DNA of 21,877 nucleotides from the IMG/VR virus record IMGVR_UViG_3300050016_000161, positions 1 to 21,877 of that record; one strand, written 5' to 3'. Position 1 is the first letter of the stretch. Every line of letters begins with the position of its first letter. The stretch is from a virus. A program made the translations under genes and the position numbers. This document shows, in pieces, positions 3,451 to 17,334 of this stretch. The notes beneath the pieces were generated by a model. The model saw only the letters and a program-made list of their open reading frames with translations, did no database searches and was not told the origin of the DNA.

Positions 3451-3666
3451 ATGAGTATCAAATTAGTTCTGGAAAAATTCACGAACGACCTGCATGTACC
3501 GATTGCCTTGCTTGTCGTCGCCGCCACGAGCGGGTATCACTTCTACTCGGGAAAAGATTTAGGTTCGGGATATGTTTCGAGCCTGTACGCATTCTACGGA
3601 TTTTTGGGCGGTCACTTCGGCCTGTCTCAGAAGTGGCCCGACAAAGACCAAGGGGCACAACAATGA
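3451..3666 (+). CDS. Small two-helix membrane protein, 71 aa
   Basis: ATG 3451 follows GAGGAG at 3438-3443 with seven bases of spacing, which decides against the longer upstream frame. Two membrane segments are visible: about residues 16-31 (VPIALLVVAATSGYHF) and 40-58 (YVSSLYAFYGFLGGHF). A polar loop containing GKDLGSG joins them and the C-terminus is charged. Size and topology match class II holin-like proteins and other small phage membrane proteins. Holin is only a possibility, because no endolysin gene is recognisable nearby. It overlaps the exported protease gene by four bases, so the two are probably made together. Confidence 0.65.
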   Translation: MSIKLVLEKFTNDLHVPIALLVVAATSGYHFYSGKDLGSGYVSSLYAFYGFLGGHFGLSQKWPDKDQGAQQ

Positions 3667-4646
3667 AACGATTTCTGATTGCCGCGCTGATTTTTATTCT
3701 GGCTGGATTGTCGGTTGGTGCTGATTCTATCCGCGCACCCAAAGGGTTTGCAGGTCAGGCATGGAAGAGTACGTTCGCCCTTTACGGCACCAGCGCCACT
3801 AAGACGCAATTCCTTTGCACCGCTGAAGCGTACGCGAAAATTCCAGGCGGCTATCGGCTGTTGAGCGCAGGGCATTGTGTCCAGACCGAGCCTGCGGATT
3901 TGGTGTTTTCGGTCGCGGAACAAATCGGCGGCACTCGCCAGCCTGTCGTGATGGTGAAGGCATCGTTAGAAGATAAGTTTGATTTTGCCATCTTCGATTT
4001 GAAAACGGACAAGGTATATCCCGTCATCCCGCTAGGAGATGATTTGAACTTGCAGGTAGGCGATAAAGTATTCAATACGAATTTCACATGGGGACTGGGA
4101 GAGCAATCTGGTAGCGGCAGGATTTCGTCGCAGACGCTTATCGCATCCGACCATTGCGGTCAGATGTGCATTGGCGGGTTCTTAGTTCAATTAACAGGCG
4201 CGGGGGCTGGCGCATCTGGGTCCGCAGTTGTATCGGCGCGTACCCATAAAATCATCGGCATCGTGACAGGTGAATGGGACGAACCGTTAGGGTTTGCTGT
4301 CCGACCGATTTCCTACTTCGCAGCTTTCTTGGCGTCGCCTACTCAACCGCATCCAGCAGAGACGGAACCGAAGGCAACTCCGACAGCCTCGGTGCAGATT
4401 CCAGCGAATGTATTCGCCGCGCAATTCGGGGAAGCCCATCCGTTTATGCTAACGGCGCACGGACCCAACCCGACGTTTGTTCAGGCAGGCTATCAGTTCC
4501 GCGTCGACATAGACGGCTTCGAGTTGTCGGACGATTACTACTACAACGTCCCTGTGTATATCGTCCATGATGCCGAAGGTTATTGGTTGACAAGCACCAA
4601 AGATGGGTTCGAGGTTGAAGTGACTGTCCTGGGGCCAGCGAAATGA
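3663..4646 (+). CDS. Exported trypsin-like serine protease, 327 aa
   Basis: ATG 3663 has AGGGG at 3651-3655 upstream and overlaps the previous stop. The signal peptide is clear: MKR, hydrophobic core (residues 4-18), likely cleavage near SVGA-D (residue 20). The chymotrypsin-fold catalytic triad is readable: His71 in LLSAGHC, Asp107 in KFDFAIFD, and Ser185 in GASGSA. A Cys pair in DHCGQMC may form a disulfide. After the protease domain (to about residue 225) come a Pro/Thr-rich linker and a C-terminal domain of about 75 residues of unknown type. Such a protease would act outside the cytoplasm, on envelope or surface proteins or on another exported phage protein. A capsid-maturation role is unlikely given the signal peptide. 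The target is unknown. Confidence 0.85.
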   Translation: MKRFLIAALIFILAGLSVGADSIRAPKGFAGQAWKSTFALYGTSATKTQFLCTAEAYAKIPGGYRLLSAGHCVQTEPADLVFSVAEQIGGTRQPVVMVKASLEDKFDFAIFDLKTDKVYPVIPLGDDLNLQVGDKVFNTNFTWGLGEQSGSGRISSQTLIASDHCGQMCIGGFLVQLTGAGAGASGSAVVSARTHKIIGIVTGEWDEPLGFAVRPISYFAAFLASPTQPHPAETEPKATPTASVQIPANVFAAQFGEAHPFMLTAHGPNPTFVQAGYQFRVDIDGFELSDDYYYNVPVYIVHDAEGYWLTSTKDGFEVEVTVLGPAK

Positions 4647-4954
4647 CTCTCTACGACAAGAATCAAACCCTTCTTCCTCCTGCTGGCTATCTGTTTACTC
4701 GGCTGCGCGTGGAGGGTTCGTTTCTTCGTGTGGAGTATCGGCGAATCGATTCTGAGAATGTTTCGGTCGTAACGATTTATTTGAACGACATGGGTAGGGA
4801 AGTAGCCCGCTCGGTGGACGAAGAGGATTTGGACTTGGAGAGTTTTCCTGAGCCCCAGTTTCTTACCAAGAAACATTTGACTCGGTGGAGTCGTTTCAAG
4901 TTGTGGTTGTCGCTTTCAATCTACGGTATACGGGAGCCGATATGTCGAAACTGA
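4643..4954 (+). CDS. Hypothetical protein, 103 aa
   Basis: ATG 4643 overlaps the protease stop by four bases (ATGA), arguing for co-expression with it. The product is mostly beta-like in the first half (FLRVEYRRI, VSVVTIYLND), then has an acidic segment (VDEEDLDLESFPEP) and a basic, Trp-containing C-terminus. No signal peptide or catalytic motif. It could be a cytoplasmic partner of the exported protease, but only gene position suggests this. Its last 13 bases overlap the next gene. Confidence 0.6.
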   Translation: MTLYDKNQTLLPPAGYLFTRLRVEGSFLRVEYRRIDSENVSVVTIYLNDMGREVARSVDEEDLDLESFPEPQFLTKKHLTRWSRFKLWLSLSIYGIREPICRN

Positions 4955-5247
4955 TAATCAGTCAGAAGATGGAAATGACCTGCGAAGCCTGCGGGGAAAA
5001 GAAAGAATGGGAACTCGTCGGCGCCGACAACAACCCCGCAATCCTGCAGGAGATGCAAGCGTGGTTTATAGTCGGGCGTAAGATCGTAGACCCACGGACA
5101 GGACAACTCACCCAACTCGGGGGCGATGCGTGCAGCATCCCGTGCGTGGCTGTTCTAGCCGTGAAGCTGGCCGTCCCGCCAGAAGAGCCTGCGGAGAACA
5201 TCGACCTGGCGTCCCTCCGCGTGTCGAACTTCACGCAACCGAGTTAA
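4942..5247 (+). CDS. Putative zinc-binding protein, 101 aa
   Basis: Start ATG 4942 is chosen because GGGAG at 4932-4936 precedes it by five bases; an upstream in-frame ATG at 4885 lacks such a site and would overlap the previous gene more. Cys14 and Cys17 form a CxxC knuckle (TCEACGEKKEW). Cys64 and Cys68 (DACSIPCVAVLAVKLA) sit at the start of a helix, the usual second half of a treble-clef-like zinc site. No nuclease motif is seen, so this is probably a small structural or protein/nucleic-acid binding zinc finger. It sits directly upstream of groEL. Confidence 0.6.
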   Translation: MSKLIISQKMEMTCEACGEKKEWELVGADNNPAILQEMQAWFIVGRKIVDPRTGQLTQLGGDACSIPCVAVLAVKLAVPPEEPAENIDLASLRVSNFTQPS

Positions 5248-5265
5248 GAATTGACGGAGAGAACA

Positions 5266-6864
5266 ATGAGCAAAACTATTTTGCATGGAAAAGACGCACG
5301 AGATGCCTTGATGCGGGGTATCGATTTCTTGGCGGACGCCGTAAAAATTACTGAAGGACCCCGAGGACGCAATGTTATTCTCGGTCAAAGAGCCTTGGGT
5401 CAATCCCCGAAGTGCACGCGCGATGGCGTGACCGTCTGCAACTACGTCGACCCTTCCGACCCGACCGAACAACTTGGCGCGGACCTTGTGCGCGAAGCCG
5501 CGCAGAAGACTGACAATGCGGTTGGAGACGGCACCACTGCTTCAATTGTTTTGGCTCAGTCAATGATCCATACAGGATTCGAGTTGATTGCCAAGGGCGC
5601 GAACCCTATGGCTATGGAGCGCGGCATTCACAAGGCGACCGATGCCGTCATTGCGCAGTTGAAGAAGATGGCGATTGAGGTAGATGAAGTCGGCAGGAAA
5701 GTGACTCAAATCGCAACTGTATCGGCGCACGGCGATTCATACATCGGGGCCCTTGTTGCGGACGCGGTCATGAAGGCTGGCAAAGATGGAATCGTAACCG
5801 CCGAACCGTCGACGACTTCGGAGACATACTGTCAGACGGTGGCTGGCATCGAACTGGAAAAATCGAATCTGATTCACGGCGCGTTCATCAATCACCCTGA
5901 AACGATGTCCGCCGAACTTGCCGATTGTCGCATCCTGTTGTGGGAGGGAGTGATTGCTACGGCGAAGTCGCTCGTGCCGATTCTTATGCAAGTGAAAGAC
6001 TCAGGCACTCCGCTGATTATCATTGCAGGCGGCTACGAGGCCGAGGCATTGTCGGTCATCATCAACAACAAAATCAAACTCGCCCTGCCGCTTATCGCGA
6101 TCAGGATGGAAGCGTACGGCGAACGGCGGAAGGAAGTCATGCGCGATATCGCGGCGTTGACTGGCGGCACCGCATATACCGAGGATATGGGCTTGAAGAT
6201 TGAAAGCGTCATCCTGACGAAACTCGGCACCGCACGCAAAGTCATCACGAACATGTCCAAGACCCAAATCATTGAAGGGAAGGGCAACCAGGCGGAAGTT
6301 GCGGGGCGCGTGGCCCACATCCAACAGTCCATTGAGTCTGCCGCTCCTGCTGAACGCGGCGCATTGCGCCAGCGTCTCGCGGCACTCCTCGGCGGTATCA
6401 CCATCATCAAGGTCGGCGGTGTGACCGTCACCGAGATGGAGGAGAAGAAAGACCGCGTTATCGATGCGATGTCTGCGGCAAAGGCTGCGGTAGAATCTGG
6501 AATCGTTGCAGGCGGCGGCACCGCGCTATTCAACGCATCTGCAGTTCTCGCTACGGGTCTGCATCTCAACCGCGCCGAGATGGAAGGTCTGGTTGTAGTT
6601 CACCAAGCCTGTCAGGCAGTAGTGAAACAGATTGCGGAGAACGCAGGCATCAATGGTGACTTGTTAGTGTCTCAACTGATGGCGAGCGCGGACCTCGGCT
6701 ACAACGCACTAACAGACACGTTTGAAGATTTGGTTGCGTCAGGCATCATTGACCCTGTTGCCGTCGTTGTGGAATCTTTGAAGAACGCATCGGCGGTTTC
6801 GTGTTCCATCCTTACGATGGGGGCCACGGTATCCGAAAAACCCCAGGAGAAGACCAATGGATAG
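5266..6864 (+). CDS. groEL: Phage chaperonin GroEL (Cpn60), 532 aa
   Basis: Group I chaperonin, a ring-forming ATP-driven protein-folding machine. ATG 5266 has GGAG at 5256-5259. The product aligns through its whole length with bacterial GroEL. Equatorial ATP-site motifs are intact: TEGPRGRNV, Asp53 in CTRDGVTV, GDGTT with Asp88, the GGGTAL loop, and Asp400 in RVIDAM, equivalent to the hydrolysis Asp398 of E. coli. The apical domain keeps AFINHPETM in place of the bacterial YFINKPETG. The C-terminus ends SEKPQEKTNG and lacks the Gly-Gly-Met repeats usual in bacterial GroEL. All key catalytic residues are present, so it should be active. In phages, chaperonins are thought to fold capsid or other virion proteins. 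groES lies downstream after a 68-residue gene, the reverse of the usual bacterial order. Confidence 0.97.
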   Translation: MSKTILHGKDARDALMRGIDFLADAVKITEGPRGRNVILGQRALGQSPKCTRDGVTVCNYVDPSDPTEQLGADLVREAAQKTDNAVGDGTTASIVLAQSMIHTGFELIAKGANPMAMERGIHKATDAVIAQLKKMAIEVDEVGRKVTQIATVSAHGDSYIGALVADAVMKAGKDGIVTAEPSTTSETYCQTVAGIELEKSNLIHGAFINHPETMSAELADCRILLWEGVIATAKSLVPILMQVKDSGTPLIIIAGGYEAEALSVIINNKIKLALPLIAIRMEAYGERRKEVMRDIAALTGGTAYTEDMGLKIESVILTKLGTARKVITNMSKTQIIEGKGNQAEVAGRVAHIQQSIESAAPAERGALRQRLAALLGGITIIKVGGVTVTEMEEKKDRVIDAMSAAKAAVESGIVAGGGTALFNASAVLATGLHLNRAEMEGLVVVHQACQAVVKQIAENAGINGDLLVSQLMASADLGYNALTDTFEDLVASGIIDPVAVVVESLKNASAVSCSILTMGATVSEKPQEKTNG

Positions 6865-7063
6865 ACAAGGAACCGTCAACAATCCAATTCCCAATGTAAT
6901 AGCAGGCAGCACGATTTACTTCTGGTGCGTGCTGCTGCCCAGCGGCGAGGAACTGCAGATTTGCACTCGTCTACCCATCCCGCTTGACACTGTCACCGAT
7001 ATCAATCGATGCGAAATTCTCGCAGCGCAAGTTTATCCTCGGAGGCTTGACTCCAATGTCTAA
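6857..7063 (+). CDS. Hypothetical protein between groEL and groES, 68 aa
   Basis: ATG 6857 overlaps the last eight bases of groEL and has AGGAGA at 6845-6850, six bases upstream. Its end overlaps groES by eight bases. The product is a small, probably beta-rich protein (NVIAGSTIYFWCVLLPSGEEL) with two cysteines. I recognise no family. Being locked by overlaps between the two chaperonin genes, it is expressed with them at a similar level and may be a chaperonin accessory factor; this is positional inference only. Confidence 0.65.
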   Translation: MDRQGTVNNPIPNVIAGSTIYFWCVLLPSGEELQICTRLPIPLDTVTDINRCEILAAQVYPRRLDSNV

Positions 7064-7334
7064 AACTTATCTTGAACCCGCCACAGACCATATCCTGGTT
7101 GTTGATGGCTCGCAAGTCACAACTATCGACGGTATCGATATGCCCGACAACGCCAAGCAAAAGGATATGCTGGCGGGCTCGGTTGTATTTATAGGACCCG
7201 ATGCGCGTCACACACAGCTTGCGGATACGGTTCTTTATGGACCGTATGCAGGGAAGAGCGTCGTCGTGGATGGTATGGAGTTTCGGCTTTTGCGCGAAGG
7301 CCAGATTGAAGCGTACCTCAGAAAGAGTAACTAA
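7056..7334 (+). CDS. groES: Phage co-chaperonin GroES (Cpn10), 92 aa
   Basis: GroES forms the lid of the GroEL chamber. ATG 7056 is preceded by GGAGG at 7041-7045; a longer frame from 6984 has no such site. The Cpn10 pattern is clear: LEPATDHILVV at the N-terminus, a mobile-loop region (residues 17-33), the strand GSVVFIGPDA, VLYGPYAGKSVVVDG, then FRLLREGQIEAYL at the end. Length matches the family (about 95). The mobile-loop hydrophobic triplet that docks on GroEL, usually IVL or similar, reads Ile-Asp-Met (GIDMPDNA), so binding to GroEL may be tuned differently. Its stop overlaps the terminase small-subunit start (TAATG). Confidence 0.93.
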   Translation: MSKTYLEPATDHILVVDGSQVTTIDGIDMPDNAKQKDMLAGSVVFIGPDARHTQLADTVLYGPYAGKSVVVDGMEFRLLREGQIEAYLRKSN

Positions 7335-7840
7335 TGAGTAACAACAAACGTCTGACGCTCGCAGAAGTTAAAGACACGCAGGAGTACAGCATCCTGACTG
7401 GTAAGCAGCAACTGTTCGCGGAAACATATATCGCGGGCGGCATCGGCACCGGGACGTACGACCCTATCGCGGCGACGCTGCTGGCGTACACCTGCAAATC
7501 AAAAGAGAACGCGCGCGTGATGTCGTACGCGCTGATGGCGAACATCCGTATCGTCGCCGTCCTGAATCGGCACTTCAACCGCGAACCGCTCGAAGCGTTT
7601 TTGATTCAGGTAGACCGCGCAATTCAAAATAAAAAGTTGAGCGTTGCGCAAATGAACGCCTTGAAGTTAAAGGCCGACATCCTCGGGTACGGCGCCAGGC
7701 TCCCCGGTACGGACAGGAACGCGACGGACGCCATCCCACCAGATGTACGTGCCGCCAGCAAGGCCGCCAAGAAAGCCGCCCGGAAGAAGCCCGTTCGCCC
7801 CGCCGCGCCCGAACCATCCAACCCGTTCTTCGACCGATAG
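7334..7840 (+). CDS. terS: Terminase small subunit, 168 aa
   Basis: The small terminase recognises phage DNA at the packaging start and hands it to the large subunit. Residues 21-85 follow the pattern of the Terminase_2-type DNA-binding domain: LTGKQQLFAETYIAGG, then a helix-turn-helix with DPIAATLLAYTCKSKENARVMSYALMAN in segments, then VAVLNRHF. A helical oligomerisation region follows (IQVDRAIQNKKL), then a Lys/Ala/Pro-rich tail (about residues 140-168). Length is typical. The gene is the last of the run starting at 1796. The large subunit is not adjacent but lies about 9.5 kb downstream, which is unusual. Identification rests on pattern and genome context. Confidence 0.75.
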   Translation: MSNNKRLTLAEVKDTQEYSILTGKQQLFAETYIAGGIGTGTYDPIAATLLAYTCKSKENARVMSYALMANIRIVAVLNRHFNREPLEAFLIQVDRAIQNKKLSVAQMNALKLKADILGYGARLPGTDRNATDAIPPDVRAASKAAKKAARKKPVRPAAPEPSNPFFDR

Positions 7841-7842
7841 GC

Positions 7843-7868
7843 TTTAAGACTAACAAATCCATAAGTAG
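7843..7868 (+). promoter_or_regulatory. Candidate phage promoter, copy 2
   Basis: TTTAAGACT (7843-7851), seven bases (AACAAAT), then CCATAAGTAG (7859-7868). It begins two bases after the terminase small-subunit stop, and the following gene starts within about 58 bases. The same boxes at the same spacing recur at four other gene-block boundaries. Confidence 0.75.
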
Positions 7869-7925
7869 GTGGACACCTTTTCGATTTCGGGCACCGAGAC
7901 CCTCGGGCAACCACGTCACGGCTTG

Positions 7926-8171
7926 GTGCCTATAAACTCGTCCGCGATTAAAGGTGAGCCTGGGACGGGGTTCGAAAAACGAGGGGATAAAGGTCCGTTT
8001 GATTGCGGCAACTGCACATACTTTGATGCCGCAGCGGGAGCCTGTGACCAGTGGGATATGAAGATGAAATCAAGGCAACCTAAACTCGACGACGGGCGGA
8101 TTTCTGTTGCATTTGATGACTGTTGCGAGTATATTGAACGCATAGGTAAATCAAATGCTTCGAACACTTGA
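7926..8171 (+). CDS. Cys-rich hypothetical protein, 81 aa
   Basis: The frame is open from GTG 7869, directly against promoter copy 2. I prefer GTG 7926 because the conserved-looking part begins there; neither start has a good ribosome binding site. The N-terminus carries KGEPGTGFEKRGDKGPF. Then come Cys27 and Cys30 (DCGNCTYFD), Cys40, and a late Cys-Cys pair (DDCCEYIERIG). Five cysteines with this spacing suggest a metal site, zinc or possibly Fe-S. Similar small phage proteins with a GPFDCGNC-like motif seem familiar, but I know of no function. It overlaps the endonuclease gene by 17 bases. Confidence 0.6.
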   Translation: MPINSSAIKGEPGTGFEKRGDKGPFDCGNCTYFDAAAGACDQWDMKMKSRQPKLDDGRISVAFDDCCEYIERIGKSNASNT

Positions 8172-8667
8172 TTTGGCGGGACAGAGATTTGGGCGGCTTG
8201 TTGCTGTCGGCTGCGTGGGAAACAGTTTATCAGGTCAAGGTCGTGTTTGGATTTGCGATTGTGATTGTGGAAATATTACAACGGTGCCTGGGAAAGCGTT
8301 AAAACGTCCGATCAAACCTACTCACAGTTGTGGATGTCTGTGGCGGGAGTGGCGTCACACCTCTCGAATAAGACGCAGCAAAAACAACTATCAAAGGGCG
8401 AACGGAGCCTTATCGTGCAGCAGCCCAGGGGCGACGCGACTGAAAGAGAGTAAGTACCAAGAACAGTGCGGGAAGTGCGCCTTGTGCGGAAGAGATTTAC
8501 CCGCAGATTTTCGAAGAGCCCATTGGGACCACAATCATGAAACAAAACAGTTTCGAGGACTCGTACATAACGTCTGCAATATTATCATTGGATATGTAGA
8601 AGTCCATCCCGAATTAATCGAGAAAGTGCAGGGCTACATCCATGACCACGAACCAAGCATTTCATGA
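8155..8667 (+). CDS. Zinc-domain / endonuclease VII fusion, probable homing endonuclease, 170 aa
   Basis: Residues 8-62 form the small zinc domain often found at the N-terminus of phage HNH/AP2 homing endonucleases: GQRFGRLVAV, WICDCDCGN, THSCGCL. The C-terminal part (about 100-165) is recombination endonuclease VII type: Cys108-x2-Cys111, then WDHNHET with the His-Asn-His core at 126-128, RGLVHNVCN, and a helix ending PELIEKVQGYI. The usual second zinc knuckle (LC..CN) here has His138 in place of the first cysteine, so the zinc site would be C-C-H-C. The DHNH core is intact. It could be a selfish homing nuclease or a Holliday-junction/debranching nuclease used before packaging. The DNA-binding fusion favours homing. 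Confidence 0.82.
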   Translation: MLRTLDLAGQRFGRLVAVGCVGNSLSGQGRVWICDCDCGNITTVPGKALKRPIKPTHSCGCLWREWRHTSRIRRSKNNYQRANGALSCSSPGATRLKESKYQEQCGKCALCGRDLPADFRRAHWDHNHETKQFRGLVHNVCNIIIGYVEVHPELIEKVQGYIHDHEPSIS

Positions 8668-8803
8668 ACTCAAAGCGAACCCTCCAGCTATCCTCGCAAA
8701 AACCGCCAAGAAATCAGGCGCCGCTCAAGCTAACAAGCAACGCATAGCCATCGCCCTCTCGAAAGCTGGAATGTCGAAGCCTGGGAAGAATGCCAAGAAA
8801 TAA
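8642..8803 (+). CDS. Small basic protein, 53 aa
   Basis: The gene starts at ATG 8642, overlapping the end of the endonuclease gene by 26 bases, and ends at TAA 8801-8803, eight bases before promoter copy 3. The product is rich in Lys and Ala and resembles a frequent type of short phage protein with a core like KSGxxxxNKQRIAIALSKAG and a Lys-rich end. Function unknown; nucleic-acid binding is plausible from the charge. Confidence 0.6.
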   Translation: MTTNQAFHELKANPPAILAKTAKKSGAAQANKQRIAIALSKAGMSKPGKNAKK

Positions 8804-8811
8804 CCCCTTCA

Positions 8812-8837
8812 TTTAAGACTTTCCTTTCCATAAGTAG
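8812..8837 (+). promoter_or_regulatory. Candidate phage promoter, copy 3
   Basis: TTTAAGACT (8812-8820), a pyrimidine-only spacer TTCCTTT, then CCATAAGTAG (8828-8837). It starts eight bases after a stop codon and ends 17 bases before the ATG of the large fibre gene at 8855. It is the closest match to the consensus. Confidence 0.8.
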
Positions 8838-8854
8838 CGGGGATATCCAACTCC

Positions 8855-11800
8855 ATGAACGCGATAATCGTTGGTCAAGGTGGTAGCGGCGGCTCTAGTT
8901 CTGGAAGCAATGCTTCCGTTGGTCTGAACGGCGGACCTGGGCCCACCAGTTCAACCCAAATCGGAGACATCGTTGCGGGGGTTTTTACTCCATTCAGTGC
9001 GACGAATCCCATCCCGATCACGGGAACCATTCTCGCCAACAACTTGTCGGTTGGCCCAACAGGATCGCCAGTTCCTCCTGACGCCACCTTCATAGGAGTG
9101 CGTGACGCCAGTGGGAATCTTGTCGGAGCGAGCGCAGCCAATCCTGTCCGCATCGATCCAACTGGGACGACTGTTCAACCTGTCAGCGGAACCATCACCG
9201 CGAATCAAGGCACGTCGCCCTGGGTGGTCAGTCTTGCGTCTACGACAATCACTGGCAGCGTGGCCGTAACGGGAACATTCTTTCAGGCGACGCAACCCGT
9301 GTCTGGAACAATCACCGCGCTGCAAGGCACGTCTCCATGGGTTGTAAGCGGCGCGGTCACCGTGAGCGGGACGATAGCGGCGACTCAGTCAGGCACATGG
9401 ACTGTCGGCATCTCGGCTGGTCAGACCATCGCGGTCACCAACACAGGCACCTTCGCCGTACAGGCGACGCAGAGCGGCACATGGAACGTCGGAGTCACAG
9501 GCACTGTAGCCGTTACGCAATCGACTTCGCCATGGGTGGTGAGCGGCACCGTCACCGCCAACGCGGGCACTGGAAACTTTACGGTCGTTCAGCCGACTGG
9601 AACCAACCTTCACGTCGTAGTGGATTCGGGCGTCATCACGTCAATCACAAACCCTGTCGCAGTCACAGGGACGTTCTTTCCCGCGCTTCAAAATGTGAAC
9701 GTCACTCAATGGGACACTACCGCGCTCGGCGCTCCGTCCGCGTACGGAACATCGCCAGGCGCCGTGAACGTCATCGGCGTCAATGCTTTCATTACGAATA
9801 CTGTTCCCGTGACTCTCGCTTCAACCACAATCACAGGCACTGTGGCGGTCACACAAAGCACATCGCCGTGGGTCGTGTCTCTGGCGTCGACAACTATCAC
9901 GGGCACCGTCGCGGAAAACCTGACGCAAGTGGCTGGCGTGGTTCTTGGCGCGACTGGTGTCGTAGCCTACGGATCAACACCAGCAGCCGTGAACGTCCCT
10001 GCGGTGAATGCGTTCATCACGAACACCGTTCCAGTCACGTTGGCGTCCACGACAATCACAGGCAACGTGACCGTCGTGCAGCCTACAGGTACGAACCTTC
10101 ATGTGGTAATCGATTCAGGCTCAACCATCACTGCGACCGTTAGCGGCAACAGGTCGAACAATACGGCGGTTCCAGGGGCCACAAACATCGGCGCGCTCGT
10201 CGCGCAGGCTCTGACGACTCCTGCTGCGGGATATACAACTGGCAATGAAGTTTTGCTCGTCACCGATTTGGCGGGCAACACAAACACAGACCTTCAGGCG
10301 TACAACAACAACGCTGTGGTTGGCGACGGCATCAATGGTTTGATTCCTGTCGGCAACTATGGTACGAGCGTCACCGCCGATGCGACGTGGACTTCAGCGA
10401 CTGGTCTCAATACTGCAGTCACGCTGGTCTCCAACATCGAGGGCTACAGTTCCATCGCCATCACGCTCAACCAAACAGGCACTCTGACTGCGGGCGCCGT
10501 GACGTTTGAAATCTCAAACGATAACACGAACTGGTATCCAGTCGAAGGCGTTGACCCGAACACAGGCGTCATCGTTCCATCAACCTACACTCTAGTCATC
10601 GGGTATTTTATTTTCTTGTTCACAGTGCCGACGCCGTATTTCCGTGTCCGACTCAGCACGGCAATCGTGGGATCAGGTACTCTCATCATCGGTCACAACG
10701 TAAAGACTCTGCCGCAGGTTCACAATATCGCAGGTATCATCTCTGGCACTATCGGCGGCGCGTTAACAAACAACAACGCAGCACCTGTAGCGACCTTGTT
10801 GGGCGTACTTCCAGCTATCGCTGAGACCGCGTACAATACAATAACATACACGACTGGTAATCAAGTTCTGCCCGTCACGGATTTGCATGGCGCGTTAAAC
10901 ACCGACGAGCAAGCGGTAGCGGGTGTCCAACTCGGGGCCACTGCTGTTGTTGCGTTTGGCGCCGCTCCTGCTGCCGTGAATGTACCTGCCGTCAATGCAT
11001 CGATCTTCGCGGGCGTTACTCCCGTTACGGCGACTGGCTCCTCACTGAACGTCAACGTCACCAACACCGTCAGCGGAAACCCAATTGCGGGCAATCTTAC
11101 CAACAACAACGCAGCACCCGCCGCGAGCAATGTTGGATCATTAGTGGCACTTGCTAATGCAGTCTCTCCACTATGGACTGAAGGGAATCAAGTTTTACTG
11201 TCTACTGACCTTCATGGGGGACAGCGCGAAATTGGCGGCAACATCCCTGAAATTACCGCAGCCTGGACTTCTGCAACAGGCGTCAACACTGCTCTCACTC
11301 TTACTCCAATTTTAGGCTACGGCACGGTTGTGGTAACCTTGATGGGTACGGGAACAGTTACTCCAGGTGTGGTTACATTTGAGGTTTCAGATACTGCTGC
11401 GGGTACGAACTGGTACGTCATTCAAGGCTCTTTGACAGTTGCAGGAAATCCAGCATCAACTTCTACTCTGGTGGCAGAAAACAACGCTTACTTCTTTAAC
11501 GTCGAAGGATGGGCGGCTTTTCGAGTCCGCCTTTCGACTGCGATTACTGGCAGTGGTACAACCAATGTGGGGATTCAGGCAGGAGCATTCCCAGTTGCAA
11601 CTTCGACCACCATTGCAAATCAACTGGGGGTTCGTTCAACAGTTGGTGCCAATGCTGCGAGCGATAATCAAAGTAACACGACTTTTTTTACTGATTCTGG
11701 TAACGTCTCTGATCCCTTGGCCGTCGGTGATTGGGTGTATGGCGGTGCATTTAGCGGCACAACAGACGCCGTACGCAGAGGTTGGAGCAAGATGCGCGCG

Positions 11801-12166
11801 TCGACGGTTTTCAGAACCGTTGCAGCAACAGCATCTGGAAATACCGTCATTTGGACTCCAGGCTCAGGAAACAAGTTCCGATTGCTCCAATTGTTTATTC
11901 AAGTTAGCGATAACGCATCCTTGGCGGCGGGCGGTGTTTTGACCGTCGATATCCAAGATGCGACAACGTCCACAAACATAACTTTCAGTGTGTTTGTCCC
12001 AACCACCGCCGTTACTACTGTAATCGGGGACGGTGCTGAAGTATCGCTGAACTTAGGGGCGATTGGAATTTTATCTGCCGCAGCAAACAATACATTGAAC
12101 GTGAATTTGAGTGTCGCACTTGCAACTGGTGTTTGCCGTATAATAGCTATGGGAACCGAGGAATAA
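8855..12166 (+). CDS. Large repetitive fibre/virion protein, 1103 aa
   Basis: A Thr/Val/Ser/Gly-rich, low-charge beta protein typical of phage tail-fibre or virion-surface proteins. The N-terminus is Gly-rich, followed by a head-like segment to about residue 105. Residues 105-430 hold degenerate repeats around GTITANQG, TSPWVVS (four copies), LASTTITG and TQSGTW. A module with NNxAxPxAxxxGxL...TGNxVLLxTDLxG occurs three times (near residues 430, 640 and 750). Two paralogous beta-sandwich domains, about 508-621 and 800-913, both begin WTSATGxNTA and end RVRLSTAIxGSG. The C-terminal domain (about 973-1103) is again beta-rich. No enzymatic motif is seen. It is the first gene after promoter copy 3, with a weak GGGG site upstream. 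Probable role: host-binding fibre or virion decoration. Confidence 0.75.
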   Translation: MNAIIVGQGGSGGSSSGSNASVGLNGGPGPTSSTQIGDIVAGVFTPFSATNPIPITGTILANNLSVGPTGSPVPPDATFIGVRDASGNLVGASAANPVRIDPTGTTVQPVSGTITANQGTSPWVVSLASTTITGSVAVTGTFFQATQPVSGTITALQGTSPWVVSGAVTVSGTIAATQSGTWTVGISAGQTIAVTNTGTFAVQATQSGTWNVGVTGTVAVTQSTSPWVVSGTVTANAGTGNFTVVQPTGTNLHVVVDSGVITSITNPVAVTGTFFPALQNVNVTQWDTTALGAPSAYGTSPGAVNVIGVNAFITNTVPVTLASTTITGTVAVTQSTSPWVVSLASTTITGTVAENLTQVAGVVLGATGVVAYGSTPAAVNVPAVNAFITNTVPVTLASTTITGNVTVVQPTGTNLHVVIDSGSTITATVSGNRSNNTAVPGATNIGALVAQALTTPAAGYTTGNEVLLVTDLAGNTNTDLQAYNNNAVVGDGINGLIPVGNYGTSVTADATWTSATGLNTAVTLVSNIEGYSSIAITLNQTGTLTAGAVTFEISNDNTNWYPVEGVDPNTGVIVPSTYTLVIGYFIFLFTVPTPYFRVRLSTAIVGSGTLIIGHNVKTLPQVHNIAGIISGTIGGALTNNNAAPVATLLGVLPAIAETAYNTITYTTGNQVLPVTDLHGALNTDEQAVAGVQLGATAVVAFGAAPAAVNVPAVNASIFAGVTPVTATGSSLNVNVTNTVSGNPIAGNLTNNNAAPAASNVGSLVALANAVSPLWTEGNQVLLSTDLHGGQREIGGNIPEITAAWTSATGVNTALTLTPILGYGTVVVTLMGTGTVTPGVVTFEVSDTAAGTNWYVIQGSLTVAGNPASTSTLVAENNAYFFNVEGWAAFRVRLSTAITGSGTTNVGIQAGAFPVATSTTIANQLGVRSTVGANAASDNQSNTTFFTDSGNVSDPLAVGDWVYGGAFSGTTDAVRRGWSKMRASTVFRTVAATASGNTVIWTPGSGNKFRLLQLFIQVSDNASLAAGGVLTVDIQDATTSTNITFSVFVPTTAVTTVIGDGAEVSLNLGAIGILSAAANNTLNVNLSVALATGVCRIIAMGTEE
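9166..10110 (+). repeat. Degenerate protein-level repeats in the fibre gene
   Basis: The peptide TSPWVVS is encoded near 9211, 9331, 9521 and 9857, and once more near 12790 in the next gene. LASTTITG and AxxxTNTVPVTLASTTITG segments also recur. The codons differ at most third positions between copies, so repetition is strong in protein but weak in DNA. A module running from LGAxxxxAYG to AVNVxxVNAFITN appears near 9720 and 9940, with a related copy near 10930. Confidence 0.8.
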
Positions 12167-12167
12167 A

Positions 12168-13352
12168 ATGCTATTTGACACCGCTGGAAATTTAAAAGTG
12201 ACTGTGGAGTTGAGTACTTCGGCTCCAGCAGCGTGGACCCCCGCCAATTGGACTGGGGGCTTTGTTTCTGTCCTTACGCAAGACGCAGGTTTTCAATCTT
12301 TATTAGTTACGTTGAATCATAATGCGTCTGTCACCGCTGGTGCAGTAACGTGGCAAGGGACGTACGATGGGATTAACTGGGTAACGATTCCTGCAAGTCA
12401 GGTGCTCGACCCCTCCTCCCCAACTTTCGCGCAAATCGCAAATCCATATACCTTTGTTCCTTCTGCTCAGCAATCGTTTCTTATTTTAGTAGGCGGATAC
12501 CAAGCCCTTCGTGCATTCGCGTCCACGCCTATGACTGGCGCAGGGGCGTCTATCTCTCCCTTCGTCTCATACTTACCTTACTCGCCCGTCGGCTACGCGC
12601 TGACAAACGGATCGGCAGTCACGCAGCCGATTAGTGGGGCCATCTCCTTCACCGCGCCGCAGCATGTCATCAACGATGCCAGCGCAGCGGTTATCGGTCA
12701 TGTCATCAGCGACACGGGCTCGGTGGTTGCCGTTTCCAATTTCCCAGTGACCCAGCCTGTCTCGGGAACAATCACAGCGAACCAAGGCACCAGTCCTTGG
12801 GTGGTTTCACTTGCGTCAACCACGATCACGGGAACCGTCGCCGCTACGCAATCGGGAACTTGGAATGTCGGCACCGTCGCATCCATCACCGCCGCGCTGC
12901 CGACTGGCGCGAACACAATCGGCAAGGTGGATATCCTCGGGAACGCGGGCGCGACGCTGGACGCAGCCATAAACGGGGCGGCATCAACCAACGCGCTGTG
13001 GGGTATGCACGCGCCATCTACGGCAGCCGCCGCAGCGATGGCGACTCCAACGACTATCGCGGCGCTGACTGTAGCGAACGTCAAAGCCTCGGCGGGCAAT
13101 GTGTACGGGCTGTCAGTCAACAACACGTCAGGCACGCCTATCTTTCTCCAATTTTACAACACCGCAGGCACCCCTGTACTCGGGACGAGCGTGATTTTCT
13201 CGATCCCCTGCGTCATCGGCATCACGAACATTCCGATTGCGCCGTTTGCGATAGCAAATTTTGCAACAGGAATTGGGGTCGGAGCATCCACATCTGCGCT
13301 TAGCACAGGCACGCCGTCGGTTGCTCCTGCCGTCACAGTATTCTTTAAATAA
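12168..13352 (+). CDS. Fibre/virion protein sharing modules with upstream gene, 394 aa
   Basis: ATG 12168 follows GAGGAA (12158-12163) and lies one base after the previous stop. Residues about 15-140 are a third copy of the beta-sandwich domain seen twice in the 1103-residue protein (WTPANWTGG, FQSLLVTLNH, VTAGAVTWQGTYDGINW, RAFASTPMTGAG). Residues about 195-240 repeat QPVSGTITANQGTSPWVVS and TQSGTWNVG. The C-terminal region from about 275 is Ala/Thr-rich and then beta-rich (YGLSVNNTSGTPIFLQFYN), a pattern common in phage virion proteins. No enzyme motif. It probably assembles with, or exchanges modules with, the upstream fibre. Confidence 0.72.
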   Translation: MLFDTAGNLKVTVELSTSAPAAWTPANWTGGFVSVLTQDAGFQSLLVTLNHNASVTAGAVTWQGTYDGINWVTIPASQVLDPSSPTFAQIANPYTFVPSAQQSFLILVGGYQALRAFASTPMTGAGASISPFVSYLPYSPVGYALTNGSAVTQPISGAISFTAPQHVINDASAAVIGHVISDTGSVVAVSNFPVTQPVSGTITANQGTSPWVVSLASTTITGTVAATQSGTWNVGTVASITAALPTGANTIGKVDILGNAGATLDAAINGAASTNALWGMHAPSTAAAAAMATPTTIAALTVANVKASAGNVYGLSVNNTSGTPIFLQFYNTAGTPVLGTSVIFSIPCVIGITNIPIAPFAIANFATGIGVGASTSALSTGTPSVAPAVTVFFK

Positions 13353-13362
13353 CGAGCATCCC

Positions 13363-14226
13363 ATGGCGATGGTCCAAGCATTTTCGTATAACTTCTCCAT
13401 CATTGAGAACCCGCTCAGTGATGGGGGTGTTTTCACGACGATAGCTGACGCTGATTTTACTGGCGTTCTTAAAGCTATCGCTGGAAATTTATGCGAGCCT
13501 ACCACTCTTAATACGGCGTCGGCGTCGTTCTATTCTGGCACCGTTCCCGCACCTGGGGGCACTTGGCCTGCCGACCAGTATGCGGAGATGACGCTCACAA
13601 CGTGGGCAACAGCAGCCGCTTTCGTATATTTCATATTGCGGCAAGGGTCCGCCGCGTCAGGCACTCAGTATATAGCAAACCTGAGTAGGTCTGGTCAACA
13701 GTGGTCTCTGTTTGCGGTAGTAGCTGGAACAGTTCATACGCTTGTCAGCGGTGCGTCTCAAGCGAACGGACAAGGGGATGTGTTTCGGCTGTCCATTACG
13801 GGTAATGTTCTGACACTATCTCGAAATGGTTCGGTTGTTCAAAACTTTACAGACACCAACAATTTTATTACGGCAGGGTCGCCAGGATTCGGATTATTGG
13901 CTCCAACAGCCATCACCAACACGCAAACAGGTCTGGTTGCATTCGGCGCAAATCAAGCCGCGACTCCGACGTTTCTTGTGACGGGGAACGGCCTAACAAC
14001 CACCACAGTTACAATCACATCGGCGTCAGGCGGAACGATTTACTATACAACAGACGGAACAATCCCGACGCACGCATCCAGTTCAATTGCGAGCGGGGGC
14101 TCGGTTGTGATTAGTCGGACGGCTACACTCCAAGCGATTGCTTCGGCTACAGATTTTCTCGACAGTTTAGTTGGCAGTTTCACGTCCCCAAATGCCACAC
14201 TTCAATTCGCAGGATTGCTTTGGTAA
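13363..14226 (+). CDS. Probable carbohydrate-binding virion protein: LamG-like domain plus chitobiase-C-like domain, 287 aa
   Basis: I placed the start at ATG 13363, just after the previous stop; an upstream open frame lies inside the other gene. Residues about 1-205 look like a concanavalin/LamG-type jelly roll: YAEMTLTTW, FVYFILRQGS, FRLSITGNVLTLSRNG, PGFGLLA, VAFGANQ. Residues about 207-275 match the CHB_HEX_C-type beta-sandwich found at the end of chitobiases: TIYYTTDGTIPT, then SGGSVVISRTATLQAIAS. Both folds are common sugar-binding or spacer modules. No catalytic residues are evident. As part of the fibre block it is a good candidate for receptor recognition. Confidence 0.65.
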   Translation: MAMVQAFSYNFSIIENPLSDGGVFTTIADADFTGVLKAIAGNLCEPTTLNTASASFYSGTVPAPGGTWPADQYAEMTLTTWATAAAFVYFILRQGSAASGTQYIANLSRSGQQWSLFAVVAGTVHTLVSGASQANGQGDVFRLSITGNVLTLSRNGSVVQNFTDTNNFITAGSPGFGLLAPTAITNTQTGLVAFGANQAATPTFLVTGNGLTTTTVTITSASGGTIYYTTDGTIPTHASSSIASGGSVVISRTATLQAIASATDFLDSLVGSFTSPNATLQFAGLLW

Positions 14227-14240
14227 TCTCAGGAGAAGAT

Positions 14241-14495
14241 ATGCTTATCGAAACTATCGTCCTCGTCGGCACCGCAGTCCTGTCCGTAGTGAACTTCGCT
14301 CGGGGACTCAAAACAGGCGAGCCAGGACCCCAAGGGATACAGGGTGAACGCGGCGTCCAAGGTGTGCCAGGACCCCAAGCTGCTCATCAGTTGGGCGCGG
14401 AACACGCTCTGTGTGGCGGATGCGGGAGAGTGGTCGCGCACTTCAGCCTAACCCCGAAAGGGTTGCGTTGCGCAAATTGTGCCCCAGTGGAATAA
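14241..14495 (+). CDS. Membrane-anchor / collagen-like / zinc-ribbon miniprotein, 84 aa
   Basis: ATG 14241 has AGGAGA at 14231-14236, so the seven-residue longer frame is rejected. Three parts are readable. Residues 3-23 are a hydrophobic helix (IETIVLVGTAVLSVVNF). Residues 26-46 are seven perfect Gly-X-Y collagen-type triplets (GEPGPQGIQ, GERGVQGVP, GPQ). Residues 58-80 are a zinc-ribbon-like CGGC...CANC with CxxC pairs at 58/61 and 77/80. Collagen-like triplets in phages form short trimeric stalks in fibres. Joining one to a membrane helix and a zinc knuckle in so small a protein is unusual. It may be a trimeric virion or membrane-attached connector. The stop codon overlaps promoter copy 4. 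Confidence 0.7.
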   Translation: MLIETIVLVGTAVLSVVNFARGLKTGEPGPQGIQGERGVQGVPGPQAAHQLGAEHALCGGCGRVVAHFSLTPKGLRCANCAPVE

Positions 14496-14516
14496 GACTA
14501 TCCTTTCCATAAGTAG
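14491..14516 (+). promoter_or_regulatory. Candidate phage promoter, copy 4
   Basis: AATAAGACT (14491-14499), spacer ATCCTTT, then CCATAAGTAG (14507-14516), followed by GGAGA. The left box overlaps the TAA of the upstream gene. The ATG of the next gene is 12 bases after the motif, so the bases just after it (GGGAG, 14516-14520) would also serve as ribosome binding site. Confidence 0.78.
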
Positions 14517-14528
14517 GGAGACATCTCT

Positions 14529-15071
14529 ATGCCCGACACACTCAGCGACGCCAAAGCATCTTTGGCTCATGCAAATAAAGCCTTTCCGACATCCGTTGCG
14601 GCGGCGCAGGCTCCTAAAGCTGCGGTGGCGGCAGCCGCAACTCCCGCGCCTAGTATCGGGCAGGAACTAGCGGTCAAGAAAATCATGGTGGATAAAGCGC
14701 GGTCGGCTCTTCCGAAACTGCATAAGGGCGGTCCAGTGCCTGCTGATGGCGCGTATCAACTGAAGGCAGGAGAACACGTTCTGACGGCGCCTGAAGCCGC
14801 CAAGGCGCGCACACACGCCATGCTGGCGAGTGGTATGAAGTCTCTCGCGAAGCCCGCGCCCGCGCGCAAGGGAAACGCATCCATCGGCGCGATTGACCCG
14901 ATGCCTGCGAAACCGAAGACGACTACAGACACGAATCTGGATACGGGGTTTGGAGTTGGCGGCGCAAACGGCGTCTCAACATCAGGCGCAAAACCTGGCG
15001 GATCGATTAAGCCAGAAATCAACGCGACGCCGAAAATGAAATTGCCCGTCAGTGGCTTGACAAAGACGTAA
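14529..15071 (+). CDS. Ala/Lys/Pro-rich hypothetical protein, 180 aa
   Basis: First gene after promoter copy 4. The N-terminal 45 residues are Ala-rich and helical. Around residues 64-93 is a motif common in phage structural proteins: LHKGGPVPADGAYQLKAGEH in two parts, then VLTAPEA. The rest is low-complexity (Pro, Lys, Thr, Gly), ending in KMKLPVSGL. No transmembrane or catalytic motif is seen. Low complexity and position among virion genes suggest a minor structural or scaffold-like protein. I do not recognise a named family. Confidence 0.6.
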   Translation: MPDTLSDAKASLAHANKAFPTSVAAAQAPKAAVAAAATPAPSIGQELAVKKIMVDKARSALPKLHKGGPVPADGAYQLKAGEHVLTAPEAAKARTHAMLASGMKSLAKPAPARKGNASIGAIDPMPAKPKTTTDTNLDTGFGVGGANGVSTSGAKPGGSIKPEINATPKMKLPVSGLTKT

Positions 15072-15091
15072 AGGTGGGGTAGAATGCCAAT

Positions 15092-15640
15092 ATGGGATTC
15101 TATACCTATTTGTGGCTTCGGGAAGACGGGACACCCTACTATGCGGGGAAGGGTAGCGGCAAGAGGGCATTTATAAGTGCGGGACATGTTTGTCATCGGC
15201 CTGTTGATAAGAACCGAATTTTAATTTTTTCGCATGTGTCGGAGTTGGAAGCATTTGAATCCGAGATTGCTTTTATCAAATGGTTTGGACGCAAAGACCT
15301 CGGCACAGGATGTTTACGAAATCTTACGAATGGTGGAGAGAATCCGCCTAGTTGGAAAGGCAAAAAGCGCGGAGCGGAATTCTCTCAACGGTGCGCGCAG
15401 CGTAACCGAGATAATCCGCCATCCGAAGCAACGAAAGAAAAAATTCGAGCTATTCGTTTAGGAACACACTGGACGCAAGCGGCCCGAGATAAAATGAGCA
15501 GAACTCGAACAGGGGTTCCTTATTCTCCGTCACATAAAGCGGCGGCGAAATTAGCACATCAGACATCCTGTGGCTGTTTTTTACATGTTCGAACACGAAA
15601 TTTGGCACGAGAAGTACAAGAAAATGAATTGAGAGGGTAA
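15092..15640 (+). CDS. GIY-YIG homing-type endonuclease with NUMOD3-like motifs, 182 aa
   Basis: The N-terminal GIY-YIG nuclease domain is recognisable: FYTYLWL (Tyr4, Tyr6), TPYYAGKG (Tyr17-Ala-Gly), a basic residue pair at 24-25, Glu-rich helix ELEAFESEIAFIKWFGR (with the likely metal-binding Glu), then GTGCLRNLTNGGENP. This is the subtype common in phage and soil-metagenome sequences. Residues about 90-160 hold NUMOD3-like DNA-binding repeats (SEATKEKIRAIRLG, ARDKMSRTRTGVPYSPSHKAA). Start ATG 15092 has only a weak site. The gene's DNA is visibly richer in A/T than the flanking virion genes, consistent with recent arrival. It would cut DNA of relatives lacking the insert and spread by repair. 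Confidence 0.85.
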   Translation: MGFYTYLWLREDGTPYYAGKGSGKRAFISAGHVCHRPVDKNRILIFSHVSELEAFESEIAFIKWFGRKDLGTGCLRNLTNGGENPPSWKGKKRGAEFSQRCAQRNRDNPPSEATKEKIRAIRLGTHWTQAARDKMSRTRTGVPYSPSHKAAAKLAHQTSCGCFLHVRTRNLAREVQENELRG

Positions 15641-15644
15641 TAAT

Positions 15645-16358
15645 ATGGGTGCAGTGCGTACACTTGGTTTGGTAACCGCAATCAAAGGAACTCCGACTCC
15701 CGTTGTGTTGGCTGCAGCCTACTATACGAGTTCGAATTTGGCGACGCCTGGAGTTGTAATTCCTGTCGCATCGTTCTCGATTTTGAACAATATCGCAACC
15801 GTCGTCTTGGGCGGCAGCGGGTTGCCGACCATCGGGTTTAACGGCGAAAATGGGTATATCCCCACTCCAACATTTTCACCAGCGAACCCAACCCAAGAAG
15901 TTAACCTTTCGAAAGGCAAGCCGTTTGATATTTACGGCGGCATTGCGCCTGGACCTCGTGGTAGGGGGGAGCAAGTCACTTTGTGGGGTTTCGGCACGGG
16001 GACATATTTCAATGGCAAGCGGATTACGGTTCTTGACAACAATCCCGCCACTAATTCGTTTCGATTTTATTTCGCGCACGCGAACGTAGCCAGTACTGCA
16101 GATACAACAGGGTTCGCTGCACCCAGTCCCGCGCAACATTATCGAGTGATTCGCATTGAGTGTGCGCAGACGCTCGGCACCGATCTTTTATATGTCGGCG
16201 ATTTAAATGTCAGTTCGACTCAGTACATGGCCGCTCTGTCGCTCGCGGGACAATTTTCCATCGAAGTCGCAGGGGAGAATATCCCACCCGAGGGCTTGTT
16301 TTTGGACACATCGGGCACCGCAGGCACGACGCAAGCAATGATTTCAGTCATCTACTAA
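15645..16358 (+). CDS. Putative virion protein, 237 aa
   Basis: ATG 15645 follows GAGAGGG (15631-15637). The product is beta-rich with few charged residues in the first half (PVVLAAAYYTSSNL, VVIPVASFSILNN). It then has FNGKRITVLDNNPATNSFRFYF, a pattern typical of Ig-like or jelly-roll virion proteins, and a C-terminal region with GTDLLYVGDLNVSSTQYMAAL. No enzyme motif is found. Its place between fibre genes and the terminase large subunit suggests a structural role, possibly neck or fibre-associated. Confidence 0.6.
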   Translation: MGAVRTLGLVTAIKGTPTPVVLAAAYYTSSNLATPGVVIPVASFSILNNIATVVLGGSGLPTIGFNGENGYIPTPTFSPANPTQEVNLSKGKPFDIYGGIAPGPRGRGEQVTLWGFGTGTYFNGKRITVLDNNPATNSFRFYFAHANVASTADTTGFAAPSPAQHYRVIRIECAQTLGTDLLYVGDLNVSSTQYMAALSLAGQFSIEVAGENIPPEGLFLDTSGTAGTTQAMISVIY

Positions 16359-16370
16359 AGAGGTATTATC

Positions 16371-17309
16371 GTGGCAGTACTAGGCGGAACAGAGATAGTC
16401 GCATCGTGGCTTCGAGGCGGTAGCGGAGGCGGGGTATCCTCGCTTAACGGCCTGACTGGGGCTGTGTCGATTGTCGCGGGAGCAAACACCACGGTGACGC
16501 CGGGGGCGGGCACCATCACCGTCGCATCGTTTGGAACCATCGCGGGAAGTATTGCGGTCAACCAAGTCGCGTTCGGCTCTGGCGCAAACACCATCGCAGG
16601 TGATCCTAATTTTACGTGGAATTCCTCAACAGGATTGTATCAACTGCAATCGCTCGCGGGGCCTTTCTTTCAATTAGGACCAGGTGTCGCAGGAGGCGCA
16701 GCGGGCATCACAATGTCCTCTGGCCTATTCAGTTCCTCAATGACTATATATCCGGGGTCTTCTCCGGGCAACATAGGCGTTGATATAGGACTAGGCGGGG
16801 GAAACAACATCTTCTGGATTTCCTCTGGAAAAGGAAATTGGCAGTACAATTCCGGCAACGGCATTTCTTCCTGGTTCGGTACCACTTCGGGGTCCGCAGG
16901 TTTAGGCGTTGCAGCAATTGCTGGAACTCCAAATTCTATTTTACTGCCTATCACAACCGGTACTGTTGGACAAGTTCTTACAACAGATGGTGGAAACCCA
17001 CAGCAAACTAGCTGGACAACGGTTGGTGGTGGCGGCGTCTCGCTAATCGCCAGCGGAAACGCTACGCTGAGCGTGACTGCAATTCCTGCCAACACCGCCC
17101 AAACTGTGGTCACGGTTGCTGCCACAGGCGTACTTGCTACAGACTCCATCGATTGGTCATTTAATGCCATCCCTGGACTTGGGTATAACCAAGGGCTTTA
17201 TGTTCTGGCATATCCCTCGGCAGGCGCCGTGAATTTCTTAGTCGTGAACGGAACCGCGAACGCCTATACGCCTGGCGCCGCCCAACTCAACTGGCGCGTT
17301 AATCGATAA
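16371..17309 (+). CDS. Putative tail-fibre/virion protein, 312 aa
   Basis: The start is GTG 16371, with AGAGG at about 16359-16363. The N-terminus contains LNGLTGAVSIVAGANTTV and TPGAGTITVAS, a pattern widespread at the beginning of phage tail-fibre shafts. The middle is Gly/Ser-rich (FSSSMTIYPGSSPGN, GLGGGNNIFWISSGKGNW). After GTVGQVLTTDGG comes a compact beta domain that ends TPGAAQLNWRVNR. The Gly/Ser-rich shaft and beta-rich tip fit a short fibre or spike. No depolymerase motif is seen. Confidence 0.65.
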   Translation: MAVLGGTEIVASWLRGGSGGGVSSLNGLTGAVSIVAGANTTVTPGAGTITVASFGTIAGSIAVNQVAFGSGANTIAGDPNFTWNSSTGLYQLQSLAGPFFQLGPGVAGGAAGITMSSGLFSSSMTIYPGSSPGNIGVDIGLGGGNNIFWISSGKGNWQYNSGNGISSWFGTTSGSAGLGVAAIAGTPNSILLPITTGTVGQVLTTDGGNPQQTSWTTVGGGGVSLIASGNATLSVTAIPANTAQTVVTVAATGVLATDSIDWSFNAIPGLGYNQGLYVLAYPSAGAVNFLVVNGTANAYTPGAAQLNWRVNR

Positions 17310-17334
17310 TTCGTAAGGAAGGGTGAGCAGACCC

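Follow-up and report, generated by a model that had tools for sequence, protein, structure and literature searches.

Introduction

Phages are already known to carry chaperonins together with a GroES, and the gene order groEL-groES is also known among them. The GroEL-like proteins encoded by Pseudomonas phage EL (gp146), OBP and AR9 function with no co-chaperonin (PMC9598537), and the EL chaperonin did not interact with E. coli GroES (PMC7185714). Phage T4 gp31 serves the host GroEL and has the GroES fold without roof loops (structural match 1g31); the missing roof is thought to let the large capsid protein fit (PMC6318259). Both genes are present in Cellulophaga phi40:1, in the order groES, small gene, groEL, and in the cultured Flavobacterium phage vB_FspP_elemoA_7-9A (~60 kb), in which groEL comes first and overlaps groES by 1 base.

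The GroELs described from viral metagenomes by Marine et al. in 2017 are reportedly not recent host copies, and their subunit order is said to follow GroEL phylogeny. Uncultured-virus GroELs that are not recent host copies were also reported by Wu et al. 2021 (PMC8390657) and resemble in this the family described below, which was compared with both sets by description.

Here we describe a groEL-groES pair from a family of uncultured soil phages. In contrast to EL, OBP and AR9, which act without one, members of this family encode a GroES that is always adjacent to groEL. Their GroES resembles gp31 in its fold, but T4 relies on the host GroEL and gp31 has a mobile loop of 22 residues, whereas the family loop has 16 and a GroEL gene lies alongside. 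The proteins are homologous to those of the bacterial groE operon, most closely that of Acidobacteriota, and have intact catalytic aspartates, but they differ from it in the reversed gene order, in an identity of at most 45%, and in the missing conserved allosteric contacts, GGM tail and GroES roof. Judging from the predicted proteins and their conservation, we think it likely that these genes give a phage family, whose hosts are probably Acidobacteriota, a self-sufficient chaperonin module in which GroEL rings and a dedicated GroES would fold one or more phage proteins.

Results

Chaperonin genes in a tailed-phage record

The window, that is, the whole stretch of DNA analysed, is a 21,877-base IMG/VR virus record. 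Its plus-strand genes for the terminase large subunit (TerL; 17323-19257) and an SU10-type portal protein (SU10_portal, with Pfam and PHROG matches; 19302-21542) mark it as a tailed phage, and the portal links it to the podovirus Tunturi 3. The chaperonin cluster lies on the same strand, with each gene overlapping the next. Its first gene, groEL (Cpn60; 5266-6864, from an ATG at 5266 to a TAG at 6864), encodes a divergent group I chaperonin large subunit of 532 aa. It is followed by a 68-aa accessory gene (6857-7063, plus strand) with start/stop overlaps of 8 nt with groEL and with groES (ATGGATAG, ATGTCTAA), by groES itself (Cpn10; 7056-7334, from an ATG at 7056 to a TAA at 7334), whose 92-aa product keeps the mobile loop and lacks the roof hairpin, and by a 168-aa terS-like gene (7334-7840, plus strand) whose start shares 1 nt with the groES stop. 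The positions of all four genes agree with the initial annotation. Directly upstream of groEL, a conserved plus-strand gene (4936-5247) is kept in 11 of the 11 loci first examined.

Pfam and PHROG profiles agree that a full 532-residue GroEL and a 92-residue GroES are encoded together, as had been claimed. The GroEL matches Pfam Cpn60_TCP1 (PF00118) over its full length (1.3e-59; 202.7 bits against a cut-off of 34.3) and the PHROG groEL profile (2.3e-118). It passes the NCBIfam subfamily NF009487 (516.6 bits against 352) and falls below the cut-off of the NCBIfam GroEL equivalog TIGR02348 (504.3 against 582.1 bits), which the elemoA GroEL also fails (453.5) and the Flavobacterium immuto GroEL passes (712.8). 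The GroES matches Pfam Cpn10 (PF00166; 5.5e-9, 36.4 bits against a cut-off of 21.1) and PHROG GroES (2.3e-4), and stays under all NCBIfam GroES cut-offs (for example 38.3 against 96). The gene after groES, first annotated as terS, has a weak match to the terS profile phrog_51 of PHROG (E 1.3e-3, 71 residues) and none in Pfam, but it is conserved beside groES across the family. Scans for promoters, RNAs and repeats around the chaperonin genes found nothing.

Several neighbouring genes complete the picture of the record. The terS-like gene and terL are ~9.5 kb apart (7840-17323), with long, repetitive fibre-like genes between them (8855-12166 and 12168-13352) that vary strongly among relatives. 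A trypsin-like protease gene upstream of the module (3660-4646), found in about 7 of the 11 related loci first examined, possibly encodes a maturation protease or a secreted enzyme. An endonuclease VII/HNH-type gene is located at 8155-8667, and the gene at 15092-15640 has relatives at differing places in other contigs (L005, L006, L008), in the manner of a homing endonuclease.

A virus family with a fixed groEL-groES order

Searching IMG/VR with the window GroEL recovered eleven contigs at 72-78% identity, of which several reach 96-100 kb, and scans with GroEL and GroES alignments raised the number of further IMG/VR contigs to sixteen, with groEL then groES at the same spot. This order holds in every one of the 15 family loci, among them the window, that contain enough sequence, and two more family contigs end inside groEL with the same junction visible. 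In nearly all family loci, terS follows groES directly or past one HNH-type gene. Contigs that have TerL but no GroEL stop short of the chaperonin site or close to it. Among five family genes compared, groEL is the most conserved (mean distance 0.28 versus 0.38-0.50). The groEL-groES module is a conserved, selected feature of this virus family.

That the order is opposite to the bacterial one, as first noted, was upheld: groES precedes groEL in 75 of 80 bacterial loci, four have no groES in reach, and one is reversed. The sole reversed case, with groEL before groES, comes from a Candidatus Omnitrophota MAG (L065). Other viral GroEL loci have a groES nearby in 27 of 79 cases, and in all 27 it lies just upstream of groEL. 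The statement in the initial annotation that phage pairs with a cognate GroES are rarer still was overstated in view of these 27 loci and of the 257 GenBank records in the phage collection with a GroEL match, although some of the latter are host contamination. Nor are the reversed order and the pair new to phages, since the cultured elemoA_7-9A has both and Cellulophaga phi40:1 has the pair. Phage elemoA_7-9A differs from the family in its unrelated neighbourhood of tail-fibre genes, in having no gene between the two chaperonin genes, and in keeping E386, E409 and R501.

An accessory gene at the groEL-groES junction

The 68-aa gene had been described as locked between the chaperonin genes, but it is an accessory present in only 4 of 17 family loci (the window, L003, L008 and L025, at the same place). 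These homologues are 59-72% identical, and none was found elsewhere in IMG/VR. Ten of the 17 junctions have no intervening gene and three loci carry others: different small genes in L001 and L002, and in L006 a NUMOD3-containing gene that resembles a GIY-YIG endonuclease. These counts reject a fixed role of the gene in the machine. In the ten insert-free loci, groES starts within the end of groEL through an 8-nt overlap (ATG...TAA) of the kind seen on both sides of the window insert, which indicates that the 68-aa gene is cargo that entered a coupled junction without disturbing it. Because it changes mainly at third codon positions, it is translated, and by this pattern of substitution it is a real gene. 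Its protein has no match in Pfam, PHROG, NCBIfam or PADLOC, and its predicted structure (pLDDT 70) has no viral fold match. Endonuclease-like genes were observed at the groES/terS or groEL/groES junctions of relatives (L004:9873-10400, L025:6005-6565 and L006:9592-10230), and the module junctions seem to be insertion hot spots.

Exchange of the chaperonin cassette

The sister contig G012 (L017; also L257 and L258) hardly differs from the window in TerL (99.5%), portal (98.7%) and the gene before groEL (98%) and is close to it in terS (93%), whereas its GroEL and GroES are only 72% and 63% identical and the 68-aa gene is absent. DNA identity between the two falls abruptly where groEL begins and is regained just as abruptly where groES ends, which delimits a cassette at 5240-7330. 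A near-identical sister with a different, sharp-edged groEL-groES allele indicates that the module was exchanged as a unit, and replacement of the whole cassette by recombination in the flanks is the simplest reading. The two genomes are mosaic elsewhere too, for example in the protease at 3660-4646 (61%); exchange is therefore not special to the chaperonins, yet the pair stays together and functional.

Loss of allosteric contacts in GroEL

GroEL residues were read by alignment to Salmonella GroEL and are given in E. coli numbering; the comparison sets are best matches obtained with two conserved peptide patterns rather than random samples, and one of these patterns covers position 409, where it allows both E and S. 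The initial annotation credited the window protein with all ATPase residues. This is true of the catalytic aspartates, as the equivalents of D52, D87 and D398 are conserved in 13 of 13 family sequences, but not of the pocket residues L31 and T91, both of which are replaced clade-wide.

Three salt-bridge pairs that almost every bacterial or other viral GroEL sampled retains are broken throughout the family: D83-K327 (0/13 versus 84/84 bacterial GroELs), R197-E386 (0/13 versus 82/84) and E409-R501 (0/13 versus 84/84). The D155-R395 pair is kept in 13/13. At position 82/83 the family has D-N where the others have N-D, leaving the acid one residue away. The inter-ring residue K105 is basic in one of 13 family sequences, compared with 83 of 84 bacterial GroELs, and E461, also inter-ring, is likewise lost. 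The clade-wide swaps at near-invariant sites comprise L31E, T91A/C, D83N, K327M, E386V/L, E409S and the replacement of R501 by mostly hydrophobic residues. The face that binds substrate and GroES in E. coli is changed at three residues (Y199L, Y203A/V and V264N/K), and pairing of the family GroEL with its cognate GroES is thus an assumption.

In E. coli GroEL, the taut state owes stability to D83-K327 and R197-E386, and negative cooperativity between rings is carried by K105 and abolished by K105A (PMC5941174). A disulfide that locks D83 to K327 blocks GroES binding and ATP turnover (PMC3326522). E409A has been reported to stabilise the T state (PMC2741606), an effect that runs opposite to the other contact losses in the family. 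With the contacts that hold the bacterial chamber closed lost, the cycle is probably altered. The rarity, reversed order and locked gene stressed in the initial annotation are weaker than stated there; the new element, and the more interesting one, is this loss of allosteric contacts across the whole clade beside intact catalytic aspartates, which that annotation could not have seen.

A GroES with a conserved mobile loop and a shortened roof

Nearly all family GroES carry the mobile-loop signature G-I-x-[L/M]-P, at bacterial length in the alignment; the window loop reads GIDMPD, and I27 and P30 are invariant in 13 sequences. The roof region, however, comprises 8-10 residues in 14 of 14 family GroES, against a median of 17 (12-18) in 80 bacterial GroES. 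The window GroES was modelled with middling confidence (pLDDT 72; a single model out of five). The prediction shows the GroES fold, places no strands from residue 46 to residue 58, and matches solved GroES structures (Foldseek E 2.4e-5, VIA-align Z up to 9.3) as well as T4 gp31 (1g31). Equally short roofs occur in the GroES of elemoA (L034) and of Bacteroides phage DAC16 (L028), the latter encoded by an unannotated hypothetical gene. Roof loss thus probably arose more than once, and it may be common among phage co-chaperonins.

These features raise the question of whether the large subunit works as in EL, OBP and AR9, lidless and perhaps as single rings, with a GroES that can be spared or that, like gp31, serves the GroEL of the host. 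The EL chaperonin, which has also lost D83-K327 and R197-E386, splits into single rings when ATP is present (PMC7185714); the family likewise lacks the inter-ring residues K105 (in all but one member) and E461, and the roofless GroES resembles gp31. Such a working is nevertheless unlikely, given that groES adjoins groEL in every family contig reaching the site, unlike in EL, that the two genes were exchanged together, and that the mobile loop is conserved.

Origin, relatives and host

In a FastTree phylogeny of 190 GroELs the family came out as a single clade (support 1.0), its stem measuring 1.25 changes per site. A mixture-model tree without the long rows recovered the same clade (100/100) on a stem of 2.4, joined to six Acidobacteriota GroELs (88/82), and depending on the model the stem ranges over 1.25-3.1 changes per site. 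The quick tree put the clade with phages, the careful tree without long rows put it with Acidobacteriota. A grouping of elemoA and the family, both of which are on long branches, would explain their shared gene order by kinship and was not rejected by the AU test. The sole firm part of this placement is that the family GroEL is not a recent copy. The best bacterial match belongs to an acidobacterial MAG, and no bacterial GroEL found exceeds its 45% identity. Family-specific patterns, scanned against 84,980 species genomes of bacteria and archaea, found no close family member; such a scan needs exact short peptides and could miss distant members. The phylogenetic check proposed in the initial annotation therefore places the genes in a single, fully supported, long-stemmed clade and not inside the operon of a bacterial species, and the long stem and absence from the species genomes scanned point to an old capture rather than a recent one.

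The nearest cultured relative, and the sole cultured phage with a matching portal, is Tunturi 3, a 97.6-kb podovirus infecting the acidobacterium Tunturiibacter psychrotolerans (27% identity in the head protein, 23% in TerL and 56% in RecA). Neither GroEL nor GroES was found in it. Its host, the tree neighbours and the best bacterial match together indicate that the family probably infects Acidobacteriota and that an ancient acidobacterial source of its GroEL is likely.

The absence of the module from Tunturi 3 would agree with an auxiliary gene that aids host physiology during infection, through stress or the folding of host enzymes, rather than virion assembly, and in soil, viral chaperonins have been reported to be both transcribed and translated in situ (PMC8390657). 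The fixed site among packaging genes and the family-wide retention at 72% identity suggest, indirectly, a core phage need, and we hold the auxiliary role to be improbable. Another reading is that a host groE operon was captured recently, or is decaying, and serves no purpose in the phage. In its favour, phages do acquire host genes and the clade lies weakly beside Acidobacteriota GroELs. This reading is effectively ruled out by the stem length, the low identity to bacteria and the absence from the species genomes scanned, and further opposed by intact frames, strong conservation in 13 sequences and a gene order opposite to that of the host.

Discussion

We favour a self-sufficient pair, an altered group I chaperonin belonging to the phage. 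The GroEL rings, with their ATPase, and the GroES lid would be made together from overlapping, co-translated genes in the packaging region. GroEL and GroES would then work with each other, the phage GroES capping the phage GroEL rings, and late in infection at least one phage protein would be folded by the pair. Because the T-state salt bridges and the K105 contact are gone, the rings may open more readily and signal less between one another, and the roofless lid could give bulky phage substrates a wider top opening, an idea already put forward for T4 gp31. The proposal in the initial annotation that capsid or fibre proteins need the pair draws on gene neighbourhood. It is a guess that capsid or other virion proteins are the substrate; the major head protein of the relative G010 (331 aa, ~36 kDa) would fit the cage, and TerL (644 aa) and the portal (746 aa) are above the usual cage size. 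Counting against this explanation, Tunturi 3 does without a chaperonin despite its related head protein.

A more specific version is offered tentatively. The family may have dropped the closed-state locks and the main inter-ring signal, taken up an open-topped lid and rebuilt its allosteric cycle, which could be readily open, symmetric or single-ring, into one that suits phage substrates and passes from phage to phage as a cassette.

Engineered D83A/R197A and K105A mutants have been used to dissect GroEL allostery. Here a whole viral clade appears to combine equivalent changes with catalysis while its cognate lid is kept, which would make it a natural test of which contacts a functional chaperonin requires. 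Sister phages that differ mainly at the chaperonin allele are usable for asking what the module does. The family provides a phage chaperonin pair that is defined and open to testing, from phages that probably infect Acidobacteriota; very few phages of that group have been isolated.
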